Shown: positions 11,890 through 38,274 of the stretch, piece after piece
Layout: every line of letters begins with the position of its first letter
Position numbering within the stretch: position 1 is the first letter of the stretch
From: Lachnospiraceae bacterium
GTDB lineage: Bacteria > Bacillota > Clostridia > Lachnospirales > Lachnospiraceae
Length of the DNA stretch: 39,113 nt
NCBI GenBank assembly: GCA_017621075.1
Contig: JAGATV010000008.1
Span: 1 to 39,113 of the forward strand
Reading direction: 5' to 3'
The notes under the pieces: model-generated
Told to the model about the DNA's origin: nothing
What the model saw: only the letters and a program-made list of their open reading frames with translations
Database searches by the model: none
Program-made: the position numbers and the translations under genes

Positions 11890-14800
11890 TCAAGCCTCTT
11901 CGTCTTCGTTCTCTTTACGTTTGAGAACAATGATGAAGATGATTCCTGCTACGACGATAACACCCAGGATTCCTAAAACGATAGGAAGGATATTATTGCC
12001 GCTTTCTACAGATTCGGTCTCTGTAGGTACAGATGCATTGGCATTGCTGCTTTCTGTGGTTTCAGACTTGTCAGCTCCTGTATTTGCATCGGCCTTTTCT
12101 GTAGGAACTGCCTTCATGGGCTCATCGCTCATTACTAACAGGTAATCTGATGCATGGCTCCAATCAAATACTGCCTGTGCATTTTCAACCTGAGTCGTTG
12201 CAATATACTCAAAGTCGATCTTATTGTAGTAGAACAGGTTTGCATACTTACCGTTGTATTTCTTGTCTACAGGTATGATCAGCTTTCCATTGAATCCGAA
12301 CTCGCCTTCGTGATCCAAAGAGAACTGAACCAGATCACCGTATCCTTCAAATACTTTCAGTTTGTCTGCAGGTATTGCGTTCTTCTTCAGATCTACCTTC
12401 AGGTTGACAGCCATAGGAGTCTTTACATTCTTACCATTTACTTCCCAGACAGTCTTGTTGTCCTGAACAATCTTCAGAGTCACGTTCTTGCCCTGGATAA
12501 GCTCTAATACTGCCTTATCCATCTCATAGTACTTACCGAGCTCTACTTCAAGAACAACCTCTGACTTGCCGGCTTCCTTGATCAGATCCTGGAGTACCTT
12601 TTCCACCTCATTCCAATCTGTATCAGCATTGATCACGATCTTCTTGGTGGAAGTTCCATTGTTCTTGTCATCGGTCTTATTGTCGGTCTTGTTGTCGGTC
12701 TTGTTGCCAGTCTTGTTGCCAGTCTTGTTGTCGGTCTTGCCCGTGCTGCCTGTATTGCTTCCTGTAGATTCGGAACCGTTCTCCTTGCTGCCATCCTCGG
12801 TAGTTCCCTCAGAAGCAGAAGAATCATCGTCATCATCATCAGAAGCATCCAGAGCAGGAAGGGTGATATCTTCAGATGCAGTTCCTGTGGTCTCATCCAG
12901 GATCGCACCTGCCTTAGCTACATCGGTCAGCTCAAGGAAACCGTTCATATTGATAGTACCGTCAGCATTTCTAGTGATACCGCCATGGATAGCAGCATCC
13001 ATATCGAGGCTTACGAACCAATCGTCGCTTACGGTTTCTCTGCCGTTAGTGGACTTGCTTCCGTTGAAGTAGAAGTTGGTGAGGCTGTAGATCTTGCTCT
13101 CATCCTGCAGTCCCTTAGGCTTGATGTTCTCAGCTTCCTTGTTGCTCTTCTTGTAGGAGAGAACACCATCTGCATAGTAGTCGGTATTTGTAGCATTGTT
13201 GGTATAGAATGCCACGTTGTAGGACTCGTTGTCAAAGGAGGTAGAACTGTATACCTGGATATCAGGGCAACTGTTGGAGTCAATACCCTTTGCCTTGTTG
13301 CCAAATGCAACACTGTTCACCAGTGTGTGATATCCTGTGATGCTCTCACCACCCATCTTGAATCCGTTACCGTTACCTGCATTGATCTCAGCTCCGGTAG
13401 CATCATCAATATCATAACCATTCTTGAATGCGATACTGTTACGGATCACTACCGTACCGATAGGACCGGTCTCGATCTTAGCAAACAGATCCCAACCGTC
13501 ATCAGCGTTGTATGCAGCGATACATCCGTCAAATACGTTGCCGTCTGCAATTGTCAGCTTAGCTGCAAATCCGTCTGCATCCTCGTAACCGGGGTCTGCA
13601 TTCAGATAGGAAGTGCAGTTCAGGATCAGGTTGTTGGAAGGCCAATCCTCCCACTGATCAGTTCCCTTATAACGGCTGATCTGGATACCGGTATTACCGT
13701 TTCTGTAAGTGCGAATGTCATCCAGCGTATTGTAGTCACCGGATACCTGGATACCCTTCTGGCCGGCTGCGGAATTCGTTACATCAAATCCCTGGAAGTA
13801 CCAGTAGTCACCTGCCAGTACCATACCTGCGGAAAGCTTACCGAAGTCAAGTACAGGTCTTTCGGTTGCTTCAGGATCTGCCATCATGATGATGTTCTGT
13901 TCCGCAGTACCATTGATGCCTCTGTCAATGATCACGGTACCATCCATCTGATAAGTACCACCCATCATCAGGATGACATCGCCGGGTTTTACCCACTTAA
14001 CTGCTTCATAGACATCCATGGGGTTCTCCTTGGAACCGTCGCCCCAATATCCGCCCTCGGGACTTACATAAATGATATTTCTGGAATTCTCTTTGTAAGC
14101 AACTGTCTTCTTGAATCCAATACCTTCGTAAGAGCTCAGACGCTCATACTTGGAAGGACAGAAGTTTGCATCAGGCATAAAGTAGCACTCAAAGGTTGTA
14201 TCACCAGGCCTTAATGTGGTCTGGAATCTGTACTTGGTCTCTGCCTTAATATCAACATAATCTGCGATAACCTCGCCGCTGTCCTTTGCAATGTACAGCT
14301 TACCATCCATATTTCCGTAGTATACCAGCTCATAGCTCTCGCTGTTGGAAATGCCGGAAGATTCGATGGAAGCATTCGGTGTTACATAGCTGATAGGTCT
14401 CTCTTCTGCGGGAGCATCAGCTTCAGGAGCGATGGTGGTCAACTGCATATTGGAAACGCTGATCTGTGCGTTTCTGGAAGCGTAGAAGCCAACATAAATA
14501 TTGTTGGGATCCAGCTTGGTCAGCTCATCACCTTCGTCACCGTGATAGAACTTCTTGGTAGTGGTTACACCGTTCTCATCTGTATAGCTTAAGAAGTAAC
14601 CGGTGTTATTTCTCTGGAGCGTCAGCTTAAAGGTAGTCTGAGGATTCAGATCAGTGCCCTTGGTAGCATTGGCAAGATTGCCTACTCTGTTGTATGCGCC
14701 TGCCAGGTACTCATGTTCAGGAGCATAGGTCTCCAAAGTATACATACTGCTCTGGAACTCGCTGACTGCGGAACCGTCGATCATGCCATCCAGATTATCC

Positions 14801-17800
14801 TGGGTCACACCGATCTTCTCCTGAGCGCCAACGCCTAAGTACATGGAGTACTTCTCACCGGCATCAGATGCCTTCAGCTCGTTAATATCCCAATAGTACT
14901 CAACCTTGGTCACACTTGCCATATAGGAGTTATTCCAGAAGGTAGTAGCATCGCCGTGAGCGCCGACATTATCGGCTGCCATCAGACCAAAGCCTTCCTG
15001 ACCGTTGGAATAAGTCCAAGTATCAACAGTGATATCTGCTGTCAGGGTGAAGTTCTCTGTGTCAGGATCGATGGTGGTATAGTAGAATGCCAGACCATCG
15101 GTAGAGTTAGGAACCAGTTTACCCTTACCGCCCTTACTGTAAACTTCCAGGCTGCCGCTGTCATAGCTTCCGTTGTAGCCGTTGTTCTTGGTGTCAACAC
15201 CGGAACCAAATGCTGCGAACTGCCAGTTCTTCTTACCTTCGGAGGTAACAGTCAGTCTGCTGACTGCATGTTCGGATGTATCGTTATTGCCGATTGCGAC
15301 AACACCGAAGTTGTATGCCGTACCTACGGTAAGACCTTCAAAACGATAGAACAGATCCGTGGTGGAGCCAACATAAGTATCATCCAACCATACATCATAC
15401 CATTCTGCTTCTGTAACTGCCTGCCAGGAAAGCTTCACATTGCCGGAACCTGTATTCTCAGTATTGACGATAACAGGCTTCTTCATAGGAAGTGCAAAAC
15501 TTACTTCACTGCTTACTTCACTCAGCTTACTTGCTTCTCCGGAACGCTTCAGCACTGCCTGGAAGCTGTAGGTGCCGCTTGCTTCGGGCTCGTAAGTAAA
15601 GCTGGATTCAAATCCCTTGAGAGGATCTGTCTCATCTGTGATACTGATCGTATCAACCAGCGCACCGTCAAGGAATACTCTCACGTCCATGGACTCGGAG
15701 TATACGCTGCCAACTGCTGCTGCAAAAGGTACTGTGATCTTGCCTTCCTCTGCATCACCGATTGCTGCTGCTACAGGAGTGCCCAGTGTAGGATTAGAAA
15801 CGGTATCCCAAGCCACATAAGGTCTGTAGTCAACCGTGATGGAATAATAACATATTTTAGTACCGTTACCATAGAAGTAATAGGTATGACCTGCCTCTAC
15901 GGGGAATACCACTGTTTCATTTGTGTTGGAGGTCCAACTCTTGTTGTTGCTGGTATTGTCTGCGTCAACCCAGTAAACAGTCTTGCCGCCGGCACTCTTT
16001 ATGCTGATCTTGAGACGTCCGTCGTCCTCAGCTGCCAGCTTCAGAACCGCACCACCGGAAGGGATACCGCCCTTATTGTCGCCGGAAGGATTTGCGGTGC
16101 CCTGTACATAACCGTTGGTGGCGTTGTAAGGCATATCTGCCAGAACGGAGATACCGCCGTCATAATCAACGCCTGCCTTCAGTCCCTTTGCCAGGTTGAG
16201 TTCGTACAGACCTTCTGCAGAAGTCTTGCGGAATGCGTCCTTGGTGATGTAAGTGCCGTCATTGAGTTTGAGAACTGTGATATTGTTTGCCCAATCCACA
16301 CGATTTGCAGTGTTGTCAACACCTGAAGCTTCCACTGTGCCATACTCATAGTAATTTTCAGAGGTATCTGATTCCTTACTCCACACGCTCCAACCTGCCG
16401 GAACGATCAGAGATTCACCCTGAGTTTTAGAAGAAGCATTAGCCTTCCAGTAATCGCAGGTTGCGTCGATAGTGGTGTCTACAAATACGGTTTCTGCAGT
16501 GCCTACTGCCCAAGGACGTCCATAATAACCGGGCTTAGACGCATAAGCAGAAGCAGTATCCTGACCGGGAATGGTGGAAGTCACATGGCAGTTCAGGAAC
16601 AGATATCCACGTCCGGATGCCTGCTGTGCTGCTGTAATAAATCCATAATCACTATTGTCATCACTGGTGTTCCATACCAGATCACAGTTATCAAAGATGG
16701 CGGTCATGCCACCAAAGATGTAGTCTGTGCTACCGTAGATGGAACAATTATTAAACTCAGCGTAAGTACTCTTTCCGCCGTACAGGGTATCCTGACGACC
16801 GATAAATTTACAATTGTCAAATACGATGTCGCTGTAAGCATTACCAATTGCCAAAGCAGCTGCGCGCTCTTTGTACTTGTACCCCTGAACAGTGGTGTCG
16901 CCCTCTGTCATGCCGGCACGGGGAGTTGCGCCCTCCTTTGCATCACCCTTCTTAACAAGAGTATCTGCTGCTGCCTTTGCTGAAATGTACTGATTGAAAG
17001 AGTTCTCAAAAATAATACCCTCAGCCCGGAAACCGTTTGCATTGACCTGCACAGTAGCGTTCCACATAGTTGCAGAACCTGAACCGGGGTTATCTATAGA
17101 AGGATAACCATTTGCATTGTTTGCAGCCAATGTTTCCTCGCTGTACATATAGTTTTCATCCATACTATAGTATTTATAGCCATGACCATAGTAGGAAGTA
17201 ATTCTTACTTCGTTATCACCGATATTTACACCGTTATTAGTCAGTGCAAGGGTTGCAGAATCAGCATTTGCATTCTTCAGTGTTACGTTCTCAACATCTA
17301 CACGTAACATTTCTTCGTAGTTACCCGGATCGATCACGATAGTTACGCGCTGATCATCGGTACGGCTCATGTTTCGAACCGCTTCCAATGCATCGTTGAT
17401 GTTCTGATAATCCTTATCAGCACCTACTGTAATGGTCTCTGCATAGGGAACATTTACAGTTGCATTATTATCAATCATATTGATGGTCAGGGTGGCAGCA
17501 GCACCGTTTACTTTAAGGTCGGCAGTAGGACCCTGCGTATAACCCTCCAGGGTGGCAGTCACTCTGTATTGACCATCTCTTAATTTCACATTGTCAGTGC
17601 CTGTAAACTCATATACATAACCGTCAGTGGTTCCGTCAACAGGCTCTGTGAGTCTTTCAAACTTCAGTGCAACAGTGCTTGTATCAGAAACACCGGGCAT
17701 ATTTATGGTGATATCATATACAGGTTTTCTTGTGAACGTAATATTCTTCTGAGCACCATCGACACTTGCCATGATGGAAGCAGTATCTAACGTATAATCA

Positions 17801-20220
17801 TCTACACCTTTTGCACTCAGAGTATATGTAACGTCCTTTTCCAAAACTGCGGTAAAGTTTGTTCCATTTACAGTAAACTTAGGAACATATACCTTATCAG
17901 AAGAAAAAGTCAACTCTAATTTTGCTGCATCTTCTGCTGTCAGATCAGCCAAAGAACCAGTCACAGTAACCAGTTCTACAGGAATAATGGTTACAGGAAT
18001 GTCCTTGTTGCTATCCCTGCCAATAATGCCAAACTTTCCATCATCAGCAGTGTTGAAAATATCCACGATATATCCGTTAGCATCCTTCAAGCTGATTGAG
18101 TAGTCGTACCACTCCTGCAGCTGTACGGAATACTTACCATTGACAATAGCTGCTTCTACTTCCTGGATTACCATTCCGTTTTCAGCTTTCTGCGTAAATA
18201 CCAGTTTTGCAGTGCTCAGATCAGCCCCTACAGGCGCAATCACGTCGCCGCTTACGGTAATGGTGTTGGGACGCTCGCGATAAATACGATGGATAACCAG
18301 CTTCTCATTCTCAGCCCACATGGTGTAAGAACCATCTTCGGTGGCATAGAAAGTCATGGTCTGAGGCTTCGATCTGGCCGCTCTCTTAAAGTAAATATAC
18401 TGATCGTCTTCCTTGCTGGGAGATGTCCAGTGCGCATTATAATTACCCCCATTACTGGAAAGGAGTGCGGTGATAATATCACCTTTCTCCACCTTCAGCT
18501 GAACATAGGGTTCATCGCCAAGCTTCTTTGTTGTGGCATTCAGATACAGCTGTCCCTGATATACATTACCATACTCATCGGTTCCGGTACTGGAATCATG
18601 TCTGGTCAGATTGGTGTTTGCAGTTCTCAAACGATTGGCTGCAGTACCGGCCTCCAGGAAGAAATCACCGGATGCATCATAGGAATCGGTTCTAATCTGT
18701 TTGCCACTAGTACCTGCAGCAATGCCAGGATACCAGCCGTTGATAGTATCCTCATCCAACATATTGTTATAAGTATTGTAGGTATCATTTTCCAACTGTT
18801 CAGCGCCAAAATCCCATACATCATAAGTATGGTACTCTGCTCCGGTCAGATCAACTGTCAGTGCAGAGATCGCACCTGTTACTTTATATGTAGTCTTGCC
18901 ATCGATCTTAGCAAAGATATCCTGATTGGTGCAGCTGATCTCGTAAGTAGCATTCAGCTTTAATTCGATCACATCACCATTTCCAAACTCCTGCTTATCA
19001 TTTGCATCAGCCGTATTTGTCATAACGACCTTTGCACTGCCAAGAGAGATACCGCTCACCGTCATGGTAACCCGGTTTGCCAGAGGTACCAGCTCAACCT
19101 CCAGGGTTGTCATATCTTCCGTGGCAGTAAAGGCAGTACTACCGTTAACACGTGCTTCAACGGTATCATCATTCACTGTAATAGTATACGTTTTGCCGAT
19201 CCACAATTCTACCGGGGAACCTGGATTCACCTCTGTAGAAGTCCCTCCCTCGTCAACAACGCTCAGGGCCTTGCCGGGTGCAAGAGTAGAACCTGTTTTA
19301 AGCGCTACGGTAGGATTTACTACCAGGGATTCCAGATCAACAGTAATCGTGCCTGCATCCTCTCCTGTGGTGAAAGAAGTCTTGCCGCCAACAGTAGCCT
19401 TGGCCTTAAGGTCCGTACTCCTTACATTATATTTTGTCTTTGTATACAGGGGCACCGACCCACTAAAGCCTGGCGATAAAGAGGCCACTTGAGCGTTAGT
19501 TTCCGCATTGAGAATCTGTACTTCACCATCAAAAGGAAATGAAGGTGTGGGAACCTGTACCGTGAATTCCTTCTCAACGGCATTGCCACTGGCTGTTTCT
19601 TTGGTCTCAACGATCTTGATGGAAGCGATCTTGTTCTCACCGACTTCACCATAGATATTAAGATCGCCATCCTCATTAAAATAGTTGGAATCCACTGTCA
19701 CAGTGCAGGAAAGATCTCCGCTTTCTTCAAAATTATAAGGCTGTGAATTGCCAAGTGAATCTGTCTTCTTATGGTATATCTTGAACTTATTAGAATCATT
19801 TCCCACGCTGACATATCTAGTGCCATATGTGGAATCATTGCCACCTGCGCCTGTCAGCTTAATTGTCACATCTACGCTGGTGGTCGCAGAATCCAAGGGA
19901 ACGGTGACATAACTTACACCGTTACTCTTTCCACTCTGTTCTCCGTACAAATCAAGGCTTGCTTTCCACTTGATTGTACCTGAACCCAGCACAAGGCCAC
20001 ATACTGTGCCTGAAGCTGTTGAGCCACCACCGTCAGTGCCAGTAAATGTCCATGTGGTAGTGTCGTCAACCTGTTCATAAGTGACACCAGTCGTCGGATC
20101 AGCAATGGGTTCAGCTTTCACGCTTGCAATACCGCCCAGCAGATCAGCCGGCAGCACACCAAGCAGCATGCATACTGTCAAGATGACTGACAGTACTCTT
20201 CCATACTTTCTCTTCTTCAT
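11890..20220 (-). CDS. Giant surface pectinase: CE8 pectin methylesterase fused to PL9 pectate lyase
   Basis: A secreted 2,776-residue protein. I start at the ATG at 20220 (MKKRKYGR) because GGAGGG lies just upstream and a signal peptide follows (to about residue 37, VKAEP). Residues 40-450 hold beta-rich modules, at least three alike. The CE8 domain (about 925-1260) has all catalytic residues: D1144 in GRQDTLY, D1166 in DYIFGG and R1235 in YYGRPW. An FN3-like domain (about 1579-1670) and a concanavalin-like region (about 1680-1940) follow. The PL9 lyase domain (about 2050-2400) shows DADGFAAK (candidate catalytic K2221) and NADDGWDLF (D2240, D2241). Then come an Asp-rich stretch, NKT repeats, a conserved-looking globular domain (about 2530-2690) and a membrane helix with KRKENEDEEA. 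No LPXTG is present. It should demethylate pectin and then cleave it at the cell surface. Confidence 0.92.
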   Translation of the reverse strand: MKKRKYGRVLSVILTVCMLLGVLPADLLGGIASVKAEPIADPTTGVTYEQVDDTTTWTFTGTDGGGSTASGTVCGLVLGSGTIKWKASLDLYGEQSGKSNGVSYVTVPLDSATTSVDVTIKLTGAGGNDSTYGTRYVSVGNDSNKFKIYHKKTDSLGNSQPYNFEESGDLSCTVTVDSNYFNEDGDLNIYGEVGENKIASIKIVETKETASGNAVEKEFTVQVPTPSFPFDGEVQILNAETNAQVASLSPGFSGSVPLYTKTKYNVRSTDLKAKATVGGKTSFTTGEDAGTITVDLESLVVNPTVALKTGSTLAPGKALSVVDEGGTSTEVNPGSPVELWIGKTYTITVNDDTVEARVNGSTAFTATEDMTTLEVELVPLANRVTMTVSGISLGSAKVVMTNTADANDKQEFGNGDVIELKLNATYEISCTNQDIFAKIDGKTTYKVTGAISALTVDLTGAEYHTYDVWDFGAEQLENDTYNTYNNMLDEDTINGWYPGIAAGTSGKQIRTDSYDASGDFFLEAGTAANRLRTANTNLTRHDSSTGTDEYGNVYQGQLYLNATTKKLGDEPYVQLKVEKGDIITALLSSNGGNYNAHWTSPSKEDDQYIYFKRAARSKPQTMTFYATEDGSYTMWAENEKLVIHRIYRERPNTITVSGDVIAPVGADLSTAKLVFTQKAENGMVIQEVEAAIVNGKYSVQLQEWYDYSISLKDANGYIVDIFNTADDGKFGIIGRDSNKDIPVTIIPVELVTVTGSLADLTAEDAAKLELTFSSDKVYVPKFTVNGTNFTAVLEKDVTYTLSAKGVDDYTLDTASIMASVDGAQKNITFTRKPVYDITINMPGVSDTSTVALKFERLTEPVDGTTDGYVYEFTGTDNVKLRDGQYRVTATLEGYTQGPTADLKVNGAAATLTINMIDNNATVNVPYAETITVGADKDYQNINDALEAVRNMSRTDDQRVTIVIDPGNYEEMLRVDVENVTLKNANADSATLALTNNGVNIGDNEVRITSYYGHGYKYYSMDENYMYSEETLAANNANGYPSIDNPGSGSATMWNATVQVNANGFRAEGIIFENSFNQYISAKAAADTLVKKGDAKEGATPRAGMTEGDTTVQGYKYKERAAALAIGNAYSDIVFDNCKFIGRQDTLYGGKSTYAEFNNCSIYGSTDYIFGGMTAIFDNCDLVWNTSDDNSDYGFITAAQQASGRGYLFLNCHVTSTIPGQDTASAYASKPGYYGRPWAVGTAETVFVDTTIDATCDYWKANASSKTQGESLIVPAGWSVWSKESDTSENYYEYGTVEASGVDNTANRVDWANNITVLKLNDGTYITKDAFRKTSAEGLYELNLAKGLKAGVDYDGGISVLADMPYNATNGYVQGTANPSGDNKGGIPSGGAVLKLAAEDDGRLKISIKSAGGKTVYWVDADNTSNNKSWTSNTNETVVFPVEAGHTYYFYGNGTKICYYSITVDYRPYVAWDTVSNPTLGTPVAAAIGDAEEGKITVPFAAAVGSVYSESMDVRVFLDGALVDTISITDETDPLKGFESSFTYEPEASGTYSFQAVLKRSGEASKLSEVSSEVSFALPMKKPVIVNTENTGSGNVKLSWQAVTEAEWYDVWLDDTYVGSTTDLFYRFEGLTVGTAYNFGVVAIGNNDTSEHAVSRLTVTSEGKKNWQFAAFGSGVDTKNNGYNGSYDSGSLEVYSKGGKGKLVPNSTDGLAFYYTTIDPDTENFTLTADITVDTWTYSNGQEGFGLMAADNVGAHGDATTFWNNSYMASVTKVEYYWDINELKASDAGEKYSMYLGVGAQEKIGVTQDNLDGMIDGSAVSEFQSSMYTLETYAPEHEYLAGAYNRVGNLANATKGTDLNPQTTFKLTLQRNNTGYFLSYTDENGVTTTKKFYHGDEGDELTKLDPNNIYVGFYASRNAQISVSNMQLTTIAPEADAPAEERPISYVTPNASIESSGISNSESYELVYYGNMDGKLYIAKDSGEVIADYVDIKAETKYRFQTTLRPGDTTFECYFMPDANFCPSKYERLSSYEGIGFKKTVAYKENSRNIIYVSPEGGYWGDGSKENPMDVYEAVKWVKPGDVILMMGGTYQMDGTVIIDRGINGTAEQNIIMMADPEATERPVLDFGKLSAGMVLAGDYWYFQGFDVTNSAAGQKGIQVSGDYNTLDDIRTYRNGNTGIQISRYKGTDQWEDWPSNNLILNCTSYLNADPGYEDADGFAAKLTIADGNVFDGCIAAYNADDGWDLFAKIETGPIGTVVIRNSIAFKNGYDIDDATGAEINAGNGNGFKMGGESITGYHTLVNSVAFGNKAKGIDSNSCPDIQVYSSTSFDNESYNVAFYTNNATNTDYYADGVLSYKKSNKEAENIKPKGLQDESKIYSLTNFYFNGSKSTNGRETVSDDWFVSLDMDAAIHGGITRNADGTINMNGFLELTDVAKAGAILDETTGTASEDITLPALDASDDDDDDSSASEGTTEDGSKENGSESTGSNTGSTGKTDNKTGNKTGNKTDNKTDNKTDDKNNGTSTKKIVINADTDWNEVEKVLQDLIKEAGKSEVVLEVELGKYYEMDKAVLELIQGKNVTLKIVQDNKTVWEVNGKNVKTPMAVNLKVDLKKNAIPADKLKVFEGYGDLVQFSLDHEGEFGFNGKLIIPVDKKYNGKYANLFYYNKIDFEYIATTQVENAQAVFDWSHASDYLLVMSDEPMKAVPTEKADANTGADKSETTESSNANASVPTETESVESGNNILPIVLGILGVIVVAGIIFIIVLKRKENEDEEA
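12669..12740 (-). repeat. 12-base tandem repeats coding for (D/G)NKT
   Basis: About six consecutive 12-base units, variants of TCGGTCTTGTTG on the plus strand, encode KTDNKTGNKT-type residues in the linker between the PL9 catalytic part and the C-terminal wall/membrane domain. It is a flexible spacer and likely to vary in copy number by slippage. Confidence 0.8.
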
Positions 20221-20289
20221 ATTTCCCTCCATAATTATTTTTTGGTACTCTGTAACTTCCACAGATACCCAGAGTACATTGATATCTAA

Positions 20290-20614: not shown

Positions 20615-21730
20615 TTAAATCACCACATTTTCCATGTCTTCCGATATACTCTGCATATCAGGATAGAGATTGCCTCTCTTGGCGCCGGTCACCATCAATT
20701 CATCCGCCACCCTCTGTGGATTCAGTATTTGGATCTTATGCAAATAAGGAATGCACTGTTTCATATACTCCATAGCTATGGGCAAATCTTTGCCCGCAAT
20801 GGCGTTCATTTCCCTCTGCTGCTCACTCAAAATGTAATACGGGAACACCGTAAACACCCCTCTCTGATTCTTAATGCGGGGGCTGTGATATGGATGGATA
20901 ATGGCCAAAGGCGGCAACTGATCCTGCTTCACCGGAATACCATCCGAATAATATCGCAACAGTAGGTAAAAAAACGGATTCATTTCAAAATCCCACAGTG
21001 CTTCCCATTCCCTGCCCATGTAAGCATTTCTGAGCATTTCCAAAGCAGACAGACCGATCATGACATTCATATTGCCTTCCTTTTGGGTTGGCAGATTAAA
21101 ATAGATACCTTCCTTTTCTTTGTCCCGCAGCTCGGTCTGTATTCTTTTGGCCAAGGTCCGGGCATCAGCCCCCAAGCGGATATGTAAAGCATTTTCTATC
21201 AGCGAGACCGGTCCTTTCACAAAAGAGCGATAGACTTCCTTATTGATTTCTGTGGGTTGCAGGACCCACAAAACAGGCGTGGCCGTCCGACAGTGCTCAT
21301 TAACCTCCAGATCCTTGACCGGCCGGATAAAGGCTTCCAAGGCAAATTCCAAAGCTACCGTCAAGGACTCACTCCAGTCCATGAGTCTGGTCCTGGTCTG
21401 ATAATGCTGCATGACTTCCTGCCACTCGATCATCGTCTGCGGCATTCGCATATCCACTTTATCGTAATTCCTGGACATAAAATTCTGAAAACGATACTCT
21501 TCCCGCAAATGGTTCCTACTGTAAGTACCTGTCTTGTTATACAGATATTCGCACCTGCGGAACAGATTCGGGTCCAGATTGTAGTGTGCATACTCATGTC
21601 CCCGAAACCATAACAGTGGTCTGCATTGCGGCCGTTTTACATTTTTGTAAATATCGTTGACATGAGCATAAATTTCCGGCAGGCTTTCAGCATATCGCGT
21701 ATCTATCACATTTTTATCTTTCCCCATCAC
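20615..21730 (-). CDS. FRG domain-containing protein
   Basis: The 371 residues open with an FRG domain: LLWFRGHEYAHYNLDPNLFR, with F42-R43-G44, continuing through REEYRFQNFMSRNY and MIEWQEVMQHYQTRTRLMDWSES. The RLLDWS-like block is the second family hallmark. The FRG domain is found in bacterial and phage proteins; its biochemical function is not established as far as I know. The rest (about 180-371) is unrecognised. The gene starts (GTG at 21730, or ATG at 21727) inside the end of the larger gene upstream, overlapping it by 14-17 bases, with GGAG seven bases before the GTG. The two are therefore translationally coupled and probably act together. No signal peptide or membrane segment is seen, so it is cytoplasmic. 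Confidence 0.8.
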   Translation of the reverse strand: MMGKDKNVIDTRYAESLPEIYAHVNDIYKNVKRPQCRPLLWFRGHEYAHYNLDPNLFRRCEYLYNKTGTYSRNHLREEYRFQNFMSRNYDKVDMRMPQTMIEWQEVMQHYQTRTRLMDWSESLTVALEFALEAFIRPVKDLEVNEHCRTATPVLWVLQPTEINKEVYRSFVKGPVSLIENALHIRLGADARTLAKRIQTELRDKEKEGIYFNLPTQKEGNMNVMIGLSALEMLRNAYMGREWEALWDFEMNPFFYLLLRYYSDGIPVKQDQLPPLAIIHPYHSPRIKNQRGVFTVFPYYILSEQQREMNAIAGKDLPIAMEYMKQCIPYLHKIQILNPQRVADELMVTGAKRGNLYPDMQSISEDMENVVI

Positions 21731-24700
21731 TCATTATCTCCATGACCCTAAATCGATTGTTATAATAATAATTTTGTATGAAATCAATTGTATTTTCCAA
21801 CTTTGCACTGGATTTCAGCGTATAGACCTGTTCCGGCTCATTATAAAATTCTCCTACTCGCCGCTTGGCTACAAGAAGTTCCTCCGGCAGATCCTTCTCC
21901 CAGAAACAGCCCTTATCATTTCCTCTCGTGGCGTCATCCCATATCTCACAGACATGATCGAACATTCCTTTGGGCGCCACCACGCACCCATCATTATACA
22001 CAATTTTCCGAATGCCTCTGCACAGACACTCCAGCCTTCTAAACTGGTAATGGCTAAAGATCATGTCTGGCAGGATGCTTTGATAAGTTTTCCATTGCTT
22101 TCTGACTTCCGGTTCCATAACCATACCCTTTTCATGGAGCAAAAAATATAGCATGCTTTTTTGATAGTTTTCCTCTGCCGGATGACCCAGATAATCTTTT
22201 AACTGCCGGTTCATCGTACCGAGAAATCTGTTTAAAAGTCTGCGCTTCTCTTCATCCTTCTTAAATCCTGTACTCTCATAAAGGCTTTCCCGGATACAGC
22301 GCAACGTATTCTCGCAGTACTTCTTACTCTGCTCAATCAGGCTTCCTGCATCCACACACACTTCTTCCGCACATCCCCGATCAGGCCTGCATTCAAAAGC
22401 TCCCTCCTTCTTTAGCAGCACTGCCGTCACTACCCGAAACCTCTCAAAATTGACACCACTGTACAATTCTTCACCGGTTCCGATCTTGGTGTCGCTTATG
22501 GTCTGGAAAGCCTGTCTGCAATATCCGAAGCTGCTCATTTGCAAAGAGATCGTCATAAGCAGGTCTGCACATATTTCTCGATATATTCTGACCCTGAATA
22601 TTTTCATATTCTGGATATCTTCTCCATTTATCTCGTGCGTCCATTTCTGCATATTGTCGCAGAATACCTTTTTATCTCCATTAAGCAATCCCATATTCCG
22701 CATGACAAAAATAGTGGAGGGATCGGCCAGCATCTCCTCTTCCGCTTTTTTTGCAGCCGTCAGCTTCTGATGTTTCTTCTGATAACGATCAAATACCTTT
22801 TCCCAAAAAGCTTGCCCATTTTCTGACTTTCCTTCCCTTTGATAAAGGATTTTGCACTTTTTATGGATTCGGTACAATTGTTTGACCGAAAAGCAATATT
22901 CCTTTAAGGCATCCGTTGTCCCCAAGATTTTCCCAATGCTGCCCATCTTTTTCCAAAGTCTCTTATCCAGTTCATCAATGGGAAGCAGTAATTCTTTCAG
23001 TTGTATGACATCCTCCTCTAACAGGACTATTTCCGATCCGGCGTACCGCAGCGCATCCTGTAGTTGCTGTCTGTAGCATTCCAAAAGCATCCCTGCAATC
23101 TCTTGAACTGCAGACATCGACTTATTTTCCTTGGCTTTTTTCACGCATTCCAGGTAGCGCTCATCCACTGCTCCGCTGAGCCTTCCTGCGTCCAACAAGG
23201 CTCTCACTATCTTTTGATTCCGCTCCTGACTGTTTTCTTTCAAATCTTCTATTTCCTCCTGGAAAGAATATTTGATTTCAAACAGTTCTGAAAGATAGTG
23301 TGCAAGTCGATCCGTCAGGTGCTCAAAATCATCCTGCCTGCTACCCATTCCTGCGAACACTTCTTCCTTCGCCACTTCTACCATGCTTTCGATCAGGCAC
23401 TCTCCCCACAGCCCGATATTCCCATACATAACATCATCCGAGGCCTTCATGAACACTCCCGACATTACCATTCGGAATATATGCCTGAAAATATCTTCCG
23501 CAATAAATCGATTTCGCTTCTTGCGACTTAAAATGCGTATATGGTGGGAGCACTCATGAATAATCCATGGCAACATATCATATAACCGCCCAAAATATTC
23601 AAAGGAGGGAACGGTACATACGATGTGCCTTTCCAACATCCCTACATTCATCTTAAAGGCAAAAGGGGCCCGGACCTCTACTCTTTCCAGTGACATATCC
23701 GGATAGATAAGGGTCAATATCCCATCTCTTGGGCTGTCCCCTCTTGCCGCAGGCTCCTTTGCGTACAGGTACATATAATATTCCATAGCTTCCCGGTAAG
23801 CGACCATGGCCTTCTCTGTATCGATCTGCGTCTGTATTTCATAAATCGGCGACTGATAGGTCTGATAATTGACATTCTGCACCAGGCGGGTATACTGATT
23901 GATCGCCTGGATATTTTGCCGCCAGCTTTTCAAAAACCGGATTCTTCTTTCTTTTCTTTTTTCAGCTTCATTATAGTCCGTACTTTCCGCATACTTTTTC
24001 ATTTCCAGATTGATGCATCTGCAAAGCACCTGCATATCATGCCTAAATACCACCCAGTTGACATAAGCATCCTTTTCCATTCCCGCAGGCAAAAAAGCAC
24101 GGCACATCTCTTTCATGCAGCGGAACAATTCCTGAAATTCCCTGTGTTCTTCCGCAAAATATTTCCGCCATCGATCCAGTTGCATGATTTCCTGATACAT
24201 GGCCTTATTTTCCAGAATAACAGATTCCCCATCTTCCTGCTCCAACGATCTGCAAATCTCCTCTTCCGAACTCTGCCCTGACAGATTTACCAGAATGCGC
24301 TCATTGATATTCCGGGCAACAGAACGCCGGATGACTGCAGCCAGACCGCATTCGTCATCTGTTTCTTTCCACTCTTTTTTCCTCACAGGCACACCCAGCT
24401 TTTTCTCACAAAGAACAGGATATATTTCCGCAAACTGTGCGGTATCAATATTCAACAGATAATCATATCTTCCGAAAAGTCCGCTTACCTTTCTGACCGT
24501 ACCTGCCGGATTCACACACCGCTTTAGCCTTCCTTCCAGTTGATCTGGTGCAGAAAACCGCAATGCGAACATCATATCGGGATGTTTCTCCACAAATTGA
24601 GTACTCAGGGTGCAGTACTCTCCTGATTGATCCAACTTACATTCTATACCAACACTGGTGTATGTAAACAACCGGATTCCCTGTTTTTCTTTCTGTCCTA

Positions 24701-25259
24701 CGCTATTTAATGCCAAGGCGATCCGATAAATCATCTCTACAGAGTCCGTCCGCAGTACCAGGCAGAAGTCTCCTGTAGTAGAGCTTCTGTACAATTGCTT
24801 TGCTGCTACCGTGCCGGTAGCACTCTTACACAACTGACTCCCGACAATTTTTAAGATGTGATCCTCACAATCACACAAGAATCCCGAAATATCTTTGACC
24901 TTCCCGGAGTCTTTGTAACTCTCCTTACACAGCGTGATCTGTATCACCCCCAAAAAGGGGGTCTCCGATAAGCCTTCCCCTTTATATGCCCCAAAAGGCT
25001 TTTCTAAGCGCCCTCCCTGCAGCTGATACAAGCTTAATACTTTATAGGAAACCTTATAATTCTGATAGCAGTCAAAGGGGTCCTGGATGCTTAGATAATT
25101 CTCGTAGTTTTTGCTTCTTCCCGTCAGCTCCTTGTGATACAGCACATCAAAATAGTCAAACATAAAAAAGCAGTCAGAGTCATTGTGTCTGCTCTCTGCA
25201 ATACCATTATTCCGCACCATCTCCACAGCATGGACGGAATACTTCTCCTGTTGTGTCAT
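21714..25259 (-). CDS. Large unrecognised protein with HExxH zinc-protease motif
   Basis: This 1,181-residue protein matches no family I can name. Its middle has WIIHECSHHIRIL, an HExxH motif (H568, E569, H572) in a helix, followed about 60 residues later by LIESMVEVAKEE, which could supply the third, Glu, ligand of a gluzincin-type metallopeptidase. The N-terminal 300 residues are mixed alpha/beta (FFMFDYFDVLYHKEL; GDFCLVLRTDSVEM). The flanks are long charged helices with many Lys/Glu and scattered Cys. There is no signal peptide or membrane helix, so a cytoplasmic protease is the best reading. Its last 14-17 bases overlap the FRG-domain gene. The paired, single-copy, AT-richer layout between housekeeping genes suggests an accessory (defence or conflict) module, which is inference only. 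Confidence 0.75.
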   Translation of the reverse strand: MTQQEKYSVHAVEMVRNNGIAESRHNDSDCFFMFDYFDVLYHKELTGRSKNYENYLSIQDPFDCYQNYKVSYKVLSLYQLQGGRLEKPFGAYKGEGLSETPFLGVIQITLCKESYKDSGKVKDISGFLCDCEDHILKIVGSQLCKSATGTVAAKQLYRSSTTGDFCLVLRTDSVEMIYRIALALNSVGQKEKQGIRLFTYTSVGIECKLDQSGEYCTLSTQFVEKHPDMMFALRFSAPDQLEGRLKRCVNPAGTVRKVSGLFGRYDYLLNIDTAQFAEIYPVLCEKKLGVPVRKKEWKETDDECGLAAVIRRSVARNINERILVNLSGQSSEEEICRSLEQEDGESVILENKAMYQEIMQLDRWRKYFAEEHREFQELFRCMKEMCRAFLPAGMEKDAYVNWVVFRHDMQVLCRCINLEMKKYAESTDYNEAEKRKERRIRFLKSWRQNIQAINQYTRLVQNVNYQTYQSPIYEIQTQIDTEKAMVAYREAMEYYMYLYAKEPAARGDSPRDGILTLIYPDMSLERVEVRAPFAFKMNVGMLERHIVCTVPSFEYFGRLYDMLPWIIHECSHHIRILSRKKRNRFIAEDIFRHIFRMVMSGVFMKASDDVMYGNIGLWGECLIESMVEVAKEEVFAGMGSRQDDFEHLTDRLAHYLSELFEIKYSFQEEIEDLKENSQERNQKIVRALLDAGRLSGAVDERYLECVKKAKENKSMSAVQEIAGMLLECYRQQLQDALRYAGSEIVLLEEDVIQLKELLLPIDELDKRLWKKMGSIGKILGTTDALKEYCFSVKQLYRIHKKCKILYQREGKSENGQAFWEKVFDRYQKKHQKLTAAKKAEEEMLADPSTIFVMRNMGLLNGDKKVFCDNMQKWTHEINGEDIQNMKIFRVRIYREICADLLMTISLQMSSFGYCRQAFQTISDTKIGTGEELYSGVNFERFRVVTAVLLKKEGAFECRPDRGCAEEVCVDAGSLIEQSKKYCENTLRCIRESLYESTGFKKDEEKRRLLNRFLGTMNRQLKDYLGHPAEENYQKSMLYFLLHEKGMVMEPEVRKQWKTYQSILPDMIFSHYQFRRLECLCRGIRKIVYNDGCVVAPKGMFDHVCEIWDDATRGNDKGCFWEKDLPEELLVAKRRVGEFYNEPEQVYTLKSSAKLENTIDFIQNYYYNNRFRVMEIMSDGER

Positions 25260-25340: not shown

Positions 25341-25384
25341 GAAATAAAAACTACCTGCTGATCAAATCGCTCTCAGTCAGGTAG
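25341..25384 (-). terminator. Terminator overlapping the stop of the 55-codon gene
   Basis: On the minus strand CTACCTG (25384-25378) pairs with CAGGTAG (25357-25351), followed by TTTTTATTTC. The left arm overlaps the last codons and the stop of the small gene, so that transcript ends before the HExxH gene. Confidence 0.8.
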
Positions 25385-25540
25385 TTCTGTAACGTCATAC
25401 ATTAGTTCGATCATACGCTTGCAGAGTTCTGCCTTTTCCTGCTCCGTCTTTTCCACTTCGCGGTTTTCAAAAGGCGCTATCGGGTCCTCTGCCAAAAAGG
25501 TATCAATCCTTATTCCGTAATGTGTCTCATCAATCACCAT
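25373..25540 (-). CDS. 55-residue hypothetical protein
   Basis: The frame runs from ATG at 25540 to TGA at 25373: MVIDETHYGIRIDTFLAED, then an acidic/charged helix (REVEKTEQEKAELCKRM) and ending VTELPD. Support for a real gene: GGGG-type ribosome site six bases upstream, a promoter at 25613-25640 and a terminator whose stem overlaps the stop codon. It has no membrane segment and is strongly acidic. I do not recognise it. It is immediately upstream of the HExxH/FRG pair on the same strand, so an accessory regulator or inhibitor role is possible but not shown. Confidence 0.65.
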   Translation of the reverse strand: MVIDETHYGIRIDTFLAEDPIAPFENREVEKTEQEKAELCKRMIELMYDVTELPD

Positions 25541-25612: not shown

Positions 25613-25640
25613 ATTATAGCTGCTTTTTCATATTTGTCCA
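25613..25640 (-). promoter_or_regulatory. Promoter of the 55-residue gene
   Basis: On the minus strand TGGACA (25640-25635), 16 bases, then TATAAT (25618-25613). A second TATAAT lies at 25575-25570, closer to the gene. Confidence 0.55.
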
Positions 25641-37095: not shown

Positions 37096-38274
37096 ATGTA
37101 CATCATCGGAATTGATATTGGCAAAAATCATCACGAAGCTTCCATTGTTTCACCTGAAGGGAAACAAATCGGACATTCCCTTCGCTTTGCAACTACACAC
37201 AAAGGTGCGGATTCTCTTACGAGTTTTATCTTCAAAAATATTGGTAATGCACCATGTATCTTCGGCATGGAAGCCACAGGGCATTACTGGTATCCCATTT
37301 ATTCCTTTCTCAAAGCCAGAGGCTATACAATCTATGTGATCAATCCAATCCAGTCGGATTCTCTTAGAAAGATGTATATCCGGCAAACAAAAAACGATTC
37401 CATAGATTCTTTTCTGATTGCAGAAGTGATACGATTCGGTCAGTTTGGAGAGACTTCTATGGCTGATGAAAACATACTTGCCATGCGTCAGTTGTGCCGT
37501 TACCGTGATTCCGTGATTTCTTCCAGAACGGAAATCAAACTCCGCATCAGCACGATTATGGAACAGATTTTCCCGGAGTACGAAAAACAGTTTTCTTCTC
37601 TTTGGCTGAGCACATCCATGGGCATTCTCGAAAAGTACCTCACCCCTGAGAATATCAAGAATGCTCCAACAGATGAGCTCTTTGAAATCATAAAAGATAA
37701 GAGCCACAACAGACTTACCATGGATAAAGCCCTTTCCATCAAGGAAGCTGCAGCTGATACCTTTGGTATTAAGATAGCACAGGATGCGTTTTCTTTCCAG
37801 TTAAAACAGCTTATTGACAGAATGAATTTTCTTGATAAGCAGATTGAAGCTCTTGACTGCCAGATTCTTGAGTACTACGAGAAGTTTGATTGTTATCTTC
37901 ATACAATTCCCGGGATAGGCATGATTGCTGCTGCAACTATTCTCGCTGAAATCGGCGATATAAACAGATTTAAGAGTTCATCTGCACTGGTTGCCTTTGC
38001 CGGCATTGATCCAACCGTAAGGCAGTCCGGTGAGTTTAACAGCACACATAATCATATGTCAAAACGCGGTTCACCTTACTTACGACATGCCATTTTTCTT
38101 GCTGCAACCACCTGTTCCTTCCATGGAAGCCCTTTAAATGCCTATTACAAAAAGAAACGAGACCAGGGAAAGCACCACTTAACTGCAACCGGAGCTGTGG
38201 CTCGTAAGCTTACCACCGTAATCTATGCTGTATTACGGGATGGTAAGCCTTATGAACCTAAAAGTTTTTGTTAA
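37096..38274 (+). CDS. IS110-family transposase (DEDD recombinase)
   Basis: The 392 residues are complete. The N-terminal RuvC-like domain has the DEDD tetrad: D7 in IGIDIGKNH, E59 in GMEATGHYW, and D101 and D104 in KNDSIDSFLIA. The C-terminal Transposase_20 domain (about 270-370; HTIPGIGMIAAATILAEIGD) includes the conserved serine nucleophile S311 in RQSGEFNS. AAAGGAG lies seven bases before the ATG. No frameshift or stop is seen, so the element is probably active. It acts on a circular double-stranded intermediate, guided by the element's own RNA in characterised relatives. Confidence 0.95.
   Translation: MYIIGIDIGKNHHEASIVSPEGKQIGHSLRFATTHKGADSLTSFIFKNIGNAPCIFGMEATGHYWYPIYSFLKARGYTIYVINPIQSDSLRKMYIRQTKNDSIDSFLIAEVIRFGQFGETSMADENILAMRQLCRYRDSVISSRTEIKLRISTIMEQIFPEYEKQFSSLWLSTSMGILEKYLTPENIKNAPTDELFEIIKDKSHNRLTMDKALSIKEAAADTFGIKIAQDAFSFQLKQLIDRMNFLDKQIEALDCQILEYYEKFDCYLHTIPGIGMIAAATILAEIGDINRFKSSSALVAFAGIDPTVRQSGEFNSTHNHMSKRGSPYLRHAIFLAATTCSFHGSPLNAYYKKKRDQGKHHLTATGAVARKLTTVIYAVLRDGKPYEPKSFC

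Follow-up and report, generated by a model that had tools for sequence, protein, structure and literature searches.

We analysed a 39,113-nucleotide stretch of DNA from a Lachnospiraceae bacterium (contig JAGATV010000008.1, one entire contig of a 2.36-Mb draft genome in 61 contigs; hereafter the window), and found on its minus strand a cassette of three genes, which encode a 55-residue protein, a 1,181-residue metalloprotease-like protein and an FRG-domain protein. Across related loci the genes are kept together, both enzymes retain their signatures without exception, and the small gene is coding. A role of the cassette in conflict or defence is probable. As a tentative interpretation, we propose a three-gene conflict cassette, probably directed against phages, in which the small protein, a giant zinc protease of the gluzincin type and an FRG-type ADP-ribosyltransferase (ART) would act together under the control of the protease.

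In the order of transcription, a promoter-like site is followed by the 55-codon gene, a hairpin with a U-run, the 1,181-codon gene and the FRG gene. The features are:

25613..25640, minus strand: promoter-like site TGGACA-16-TATAAT, 5' of the small gene (consensus scan, 11 of 12 positions)
25373..25540, minus strand: small gene, 55 residues, third component, N-terminal motif R-I-D-T-F-L-A (related open reading frame (ORF) in 18 of 20 loci; coding-type substitution)
25348..25387, minus strand: terminator-like hairpin and U-run between the small gene and the protease gene (-19 kcal/mol, z -3.7)
21714..25259, minus strand: gene of the giant gluzincin-like metalloprotease, 1,181 residues (ORF; motifs conserved in relatives)
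24387..25250, minus strand: N-terminal part of this protein, residues ~4-291, predicted tandem ferredoxin-like fold (structure prediction)
23544..23558, minus strand: HExxH codons (HECSH, residues 568-572; H, E and H invariant in 19 of 19)
22563..22577, minus strand: ExxxD codons (E895 to D899), motif of the probable third zinc ligand (E and D invariant in 19 of 19)
20615..21730, minus strand: FRG-domain gene, probable ART-like enzyme, 371 residues from GTG or 370 from the ATG at 21727 (PF08867; PDC-S15; weak ART-fold matches)
21335..21613, minus strand: FRG Pfam domain, residues 40-132 (PF08867)

Pairing of the large gene with the FRG gene

The large ORF starts with ATG, with the Shine-Dalgarno-like sequence AAGGAG 5 bases 5' of the start, and is present in a single copy in the source genome. 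Its overlap with the FRG gene, put at 14-17 bases in an initial annotation made from the letters of the DNA, was confirmed: it measures 17 bases from the GTG start, or 14 if the next codon, ATG, is used. The sequence GGAG directly precedes the FRG start and lies inside the large gene.

Relatives of the large protein were collected from several sets of genomes (loci are numbered with L, genomes with G). A protein search of 299 genomes of the family returned the window and three relatives, a profile search of 391 genomes of the class added one more, and a 101-genome draw of the genus contained the window, the genome of L028 and two others. An alignment-led scan of an 84,980-species collection gave 52 pattern stretches with 16 distinct loci, three of which had already been found; a single sequence found nothing in this collection, and loci came up only when the query was an alignment of five members headed by a central one. 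In a draw of 329 genomes from the phylum, one extra match of 18 bits was taken as noise. The resulting 20 loci are the window, L007, L013-L028, L101 and L102, corresponding to 18 distinct loci when the near duplicates L014/L017 and L020/L021 are each counted once. Eleven of the 16 scan loci are assigned to Lachnospiraceae, and one each to Roseburia, Ruminococcus, Monoglobus, Eubacteriales and Clostridia; L028, on the same contig as G694, belongs to the same genus as the window.

At all 20 loci the FRG gene lies directly 3' of the large gene on the same strand, with a spacing that ranges from a 68-base overlap to a 45-base gap at the loci listed, counted from the first possible start. The initial annotation had suggested such a neighbourhood survey and had named separation of the two genes in most genomes as the outcome that would speak against it; in none of the loci are they apart. 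At L025 the large gene (L025:1891-5292) is split into several ORF pieces, from either decay of this copy or sequencing faults; the FRG gene, which starts 62 bases past the last piece, and the small gene remain open. Pairwise distances between the large proteins correlate closely with those between the FRG proteins (Mantel r 0.947, p 0.0001; 16 loci, including one near-identical pair). These observations practically refute the idea that two unrelated genes happen to be adjacent, one of them with a chance HExxH. The lack of a named family for the large protein, and nothing else, speaks for that idea, against which stand the pairing in 20 of 20 loci, the motif in 19 of 19 proteins and the Mantel correlation.

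The cassette is sporadic, with 4 carriers among 101 genomes of the genus, 4 among 299 of the family and 2 among 391 of the class, where the window is included in each count and the queries differed. Like an anti-phage defence system, it is a conserved multi-gene unit with a patchy spread.

The large protein and the FRG protein

Gluzincins (clan MA(E)) are characterized by HExxH and a downstream ExxxD motif, and by sequence both HExxH and the glutamate of the ExxxD helix are present in the large protein. HExxH is conserved in all 19 large proteins with an unbroken frame, the window's included, and also occurs in a fragment of the broken large gene of L025. The HECSH sequence of the window protein, already recognized in the initial annotation, is therefore not a chance occurrence; loss of the motif in homologues, which had been held in advance to count against it, is not seen in any of the 19. 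A glutamate-rich downstream helix had been reported as a further feature. The invariant second motif is instead ExxxD, located 282-390 residues after HExxH in all 19 unbroken proteins. In the window it is E895-x-x-x-D899, 327 residues past HECSH, and both E895 and D899 fall within a predicted helix (residues 879-906). The extended form YxExx[AS]DxxM is likewise found in 19 of 19 unbroken proteins, the L024 protein being cut at the contig end. Of the 19 unbroken large proteins, 16 are in alignment A6 and 14 in alignment A8, and the ORF pieces of L025 were excluded from alignments and motif counts. Judged by sequence, E895 is probably the third zinc ligand, and the large protein is very likely a zinc peptidase.

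Consistent with the earlier description of a protein of no recognised family, the large window protein has no match in Pfam (E<=10) or PADLOC, and its single NCBIfam match (E 0.037) is far under the cut-off of that model. The same three collections, run on 14 of the 19 large proteins, gave weak single-member matches at most, so that the family is metallopeptidase-like without a real match in any of them (14 members). The best single-member matches (Pfam E 0.0017; PADLOC E 0.0032) were too weak for use, as was a Tox-MPTase2 match over the HExxH of L006 (E 0.041). Sequence profiles of the PDB gave coiled-coil, designed-helix or chance matches only, and viral, phage and plasmid collections (PHROGs not covered) contained no relative. 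A fold search with the model of the large protein was dominated by the N-terminal part, and a zincin fold is absent among the matches listed for that search. From its predicted fold, the N-terminal part is possibly a ligand-binding or sensor domain.

The FRG domain was correctly assigned in the initial annotation: PF08867 matches the window protein with E 1.8e-15 and 58 bits, against a cut-off of 25, and three relatives with 57.5-65.8 bits. The best PADLOC model for the window FRG protein is PDC-S15 (E 2.5e-23). Counted from the first start, the paired FRG proteins have 354-381 residues, and 43 positions are invariant in 19 of 19 proteins, including W41, R43, G44, Q108, H109 and Q289. The structure model of the FRG protein gave weak matches to ART folds. 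In the initial annotation FRG had no established activity, a statement that needs revision in view of the passages on the domain in one paper: there, FRG is put in the ADP-ribosyltransferase superfamily, among the immune ARTs, Frg is listed with signal-generating enzymes termed characterised, and elsewhere in the same text FRG is said to be a possible NADase (PMC9503650). The superfamily placing in those passages agrees with the weak ART-fold matches of our model, and we consider it likely from sequence and model that the cassette FRG is of the ART type. A search of the literature, with subscription journals largely outside its coverage, found no primary biochemical report on FRG domains.

Stand-alone FRG proteins also occur in the family. 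Some FRG match is present in 20 of 149 other genomes, with a best score of 86.8 bits, compared to 322-468 bits for five paired FRG loci with the same profile. Within the fetched stretches, a relative of the large protein is adjacent to none of these 20 matches; one of the 20 has no ORF over threshold, and several stretches are ended by contig ends. By sequence, the cassette FRG is a distinct subtype that is seen only beside the large protease, usually together with the small gene.

Two of the other FRG loci have neighbours of their own. In L059 (L059:2714-4113) a gene for a YgjP-like metallopeptidase shares 4 bases with an FRG gene of another kind, an arrangement that we read as separate from the cassette; it suggests that adjacency of FRG and zinc peptidases may recur in unrelated forms. 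In L058 (L058:6098-9122) a gene for a weakly matching HATPase-family protein begins 13 bases past an FRG gene of the stand-alone type, and the two possibly form a unit.

The properties of the two large gene products could also be explained if infection caused FRG to make a signal derived from nicotinamide adenine dinucleotide (NAD), which the N-terminal part of the large protein would bind, whereupon the metalloprotease would execute the response by degrading cell proteins. The small protein would then be a regulator or preferred substrate, and the arrangement would be a counterpart of type IV Thoeris in which an ART takes the part of TIR and a zincin that of the caspase-like protease. The fixed pairing of the large and FRG genes and the ligand-binding type of fold predicted for the N-terminal part agree with this model, and there is a precedent in the activation of a caspase-like protease by a TIR-made NAD product, as outlined for type IV Thoeris (PMC12847820). 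We have given the model more weight because Frg is among the listed signal-generating enzymes in the FRG passages of that paper (PMC9503650). However, TIR and caspase domains were not found by Pfam, primary data on a soluble FRG product were not found, and the model leaves the role of the small protein open. On balance, we regard it as unlikely, though the strongest of the competing explanations.

The small gene as a third component

The initial annotation read the 55-codon gene as evidence of a variable location; it is in fact a conserved third component, seen in 18 of 20 loci. It lies 5' of the large gene in 15 loci and 3' of the FRG gene in three. That the small gene switches side yet is retained argues for its membership in the unit. 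The protein has 53-63 residues, in one case 85, and a shared motif of the IDTFxA type that is weak at some loci; it takes the form RIIDTFAARDL in one branch and R-[I/V]-D-T-F-L-A in the window and L028. Of 18 upstream regions (loci with >=300 bp upstream; L014 and L024 had too little sequence), 12 carry the strict motif D[TS][FC]xA on the coding strand and 0 on the opposite strand, compared with 2 of 5,058 random windows; a binomial P of this comparison is not a fair probability, because the motif was derived from those same loci. Weaker forms of the motif are found upstream in L007, L026 and L102.

The substitution pattern is that of a coding sequence. Four close pairs have proportions of synonymous differences (pS) of 0.51-0.87 versus 0.09-0.20 for nonsynonymous differences (pN), and three distant pairs, window/L028 among them, have pS 0.75-0.90 versus pN 0.34-0.49; the comparison of L019 with L025 gave pS 0.73 and pN 0.36. 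Between L013 and L015 the small ORF is the sole long alignable stretch upstream, and in the closer pairs L015/L017 and L020/L022 the upstream sequence around the small ORF can be aligned too.

The three downstream copies (L019:13694-13882, L024:3827-3994 and L025:6801-6980) are located 75-300 bases past the FRG gene and carry the motif as KRIIDTF, RRVIDTI or KRLNDTF. An upstream small gene was not found in L019 and L025, and the upstream sequence of L024 is cut off. At the remaining loci no second copy was seen when the 700 bases past the FRG gene were scanned for the motif (L023 by eye). No small gene is visible in L014, but the near-identical L017 has one, and none was recognised in L023. 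A 76-residue open frame without the motif follows the FRG gene in L023 (L023:13635-13865) and is possibly a diverged third component.

Pfam gives nothing for the small protein of the window at E<=10. A profile of small proteins had no match at the 20 stand-alone FRG loci (best E 0.44), where two of 1,379 short ORFs have the strict motif; these two lie antisense within larger ORFs of L070. In 299 family genomes, a seven-member profile gave one clear match, in G225, which carries the pair, and four others at E 0.003-0.009, one of which was inspected and lay within a large ORF; this profile is no test of the whole family, since it missed the window's own, more distant small protein. The bare IDTFAA pattern in DNA occurs at background frequency (5 of 60 genomes; reversed control, 8 of 60).

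In 8 of the 15 loci with an upstream gene, the small gene is followed by a hairpin and U-run with an energy of -8 kcal/mol or better, versus 21 of 375 random windows (240 bases each; tested windows 240 bases or slightly longer). It is missing or weak in the other seven, and five of the eight hairpin loci belong to the window's own branch. Such a hairpin would lead to more small protein than protease or FRG, the ratio to be expected of an inhibitor or antitoxin. The promoter-like site is suggestive only, because such sites are not more frequent in the region than in shuffled sequence (8 found versus a shuffle mean of 11.2).

Genomic context and function of the cassette

The next gene past the 55-codon gene in the window is a full-length spoVAD, and flanking genes vary between loci. 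Most of the flanking Pfam families listed (25 of 114) are metabolic ones or those of flagellin, TPR and two-component proteins; among 90 flanking proteins they include phage integrase in four and pyruvate phosphate dikinase in three. The location after a sporulation gene and these families listed around the loci would suit regulation outside conflict, with the protease processing a host protein in stress or sporulation, FRG modifying the same target and the small protein as adaptor. Nevertheless, the spoVAD neighbourhood is not shared: in 18 same-genus stretches covering the spoVAD site (L081 and L088 with <1.5 kb past spoVAD) the pair is absent, although it is found at another place in two of those genomes. 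Together with the differing flanks and the sporadic distribution, this makes such a role the least probable of the functional explanations.

PADLOC assigns 32 families at E<=1e-5 to the 90 flanking proteins, some strongly, and those listed are mostly represented by one protein each. The listed families (25 of 32) include IetA-, mad3-, mad8- and ThsA-macro-like ones, counted without a background rate; the IetA-like ATPase gene is the one placed, at L016, where it lies with a weak PDC-M43B-like gene 5' of the cassette (L016:4066-8378). A pyruvate phosphate dikinase gene is found just 5' of the cassette in L013 (L013:218-2845), L015 (L015:5931-8561) and L028 (L028:5260-7935), those of L015 and L028 being 92% and 70% identical to that of L013. 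Because the neighbour is shared despite the very distant large protein of L028, this may be a repeated insertion site. Elsewhere in the window, a 2,790-residue ORF (11890-20262, minus strand) apparently encodes a secreted surface protein, judging by its N- and C-terminal sequence, and an IS110-family transposase gene (37096-38274, plus strand) lies close to the window end.

A further explanation is a toxin-antitoxin or addiction module of mobile DNA that mainly serves its own maintenance, not phage defence, with FRG as toxin, the small protein as antitoxin and the protease removing the antitoxin. Copies are patchy and divergent even inside one genus, the small gene often precedes a terminator-like hairpin, and integrase-family matches occur in 4 of the 90 flanking proteins. 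The plasmid and phage collections searched contain no relative, however, and a protein of ~1,180 residues would be an unusual cost for addiction; we consider this explanation improbable. If the break in L025 is real, a broken protease gene beside open FRG and small genes indicates that the protease is probably not an antitoxin.

We return to the protease-gated conflict cassette, for which we infer the following order of events. The small protein would keep the protease-FRG pair quiet or act as a dedicated gating substrate, and would be made in excess wherever the terminator-like hairpin follows its gene. The protease, which has long helical arms and an N-terminal part predicted to form a tandem ferredoxin-like fold, may recognise a trigger and then cleave the small protein, or a complex of small protein and FRG. 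Freed FRG would use NAD+, either to ADP-ribosylate a target or to deplete NAD+, and the cell would stop. This wiring, both in the order of events and in the role of the small protein as inhibitor or substrate, is somewhat more doubtful than the explanation as a whole. Put more generally, we speculate that a new family of giant gluzincins gates, or is gated by, an NAD-using FRG through a protein of ~58 residues, whose motif R/K-x-I-D-T-F-x-A may be the recognition or cleavage element of the protease. If this is true, the cassette is a bacterial immune device of three components that has not been described before. FRG domains are candidate enzymes of immunity, to which the cassette adds a constant protease partner and a small one whose obvious motif can be mutated, so that the action of FRG, its off-switch, and whether the dedicated protease releases or obeys it become directly testable.

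Several known systems share parts of this design. The large protein resembles gluzincins in HExxH and ExxxD with invariant E and D, but differs in the 282-390-residue spacing of the motifs, the predicted tandem ferredoxin-like N-terminal part and the lack of a Pfam family. ImmA-ImmR and the CRISPR-Lon pair CalpL-CalpT are protease-gated switches in which a dedicated protease controls a small partner. By description they are like the gating proposed here, to which the cassette adds an ART-like third partner. Stand-alone candidate defence proteins (PADLOC PDC-S15) have the FRG domain in common with the cassette, but the 20 examined score <=86.8 bits and lack the large protease, beside which alone the cassette FRG has been seen. 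No published title or abstract was found to describe an FRG-metallopeptidase pair, in a search limited for subscription journals.

Type IV Thoeris is analogous in combining an NAD-using enzyme with a protease (PMC12847820). Its TIR gene is not in the cassette, where Pfam (E<=10) gives FRG alone; its caspase-like protease likewise has no Pfam match there and is replaced by an HExxH zincin signature, and the cassette has an extra small gene. CmdTAC consists of a toxic mRNA ART, an antitoxin and a chaperone (PMC11618068), and is analogous as a three-gene set whose ART effector is freed on removal of a partner. Compared by description, CmdTAC has a capsid-sensing chaperone and a degraded antitoxin where the cassette has a giant metalloprotease and a small partner. 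Without any claim of kinship to either system, CmdTAC is by design the closest three-gene ART system known to us, and the set of genes reported here looks like an undescribed cassette of gut bacteria of this kind, the ART-based conflict systems.
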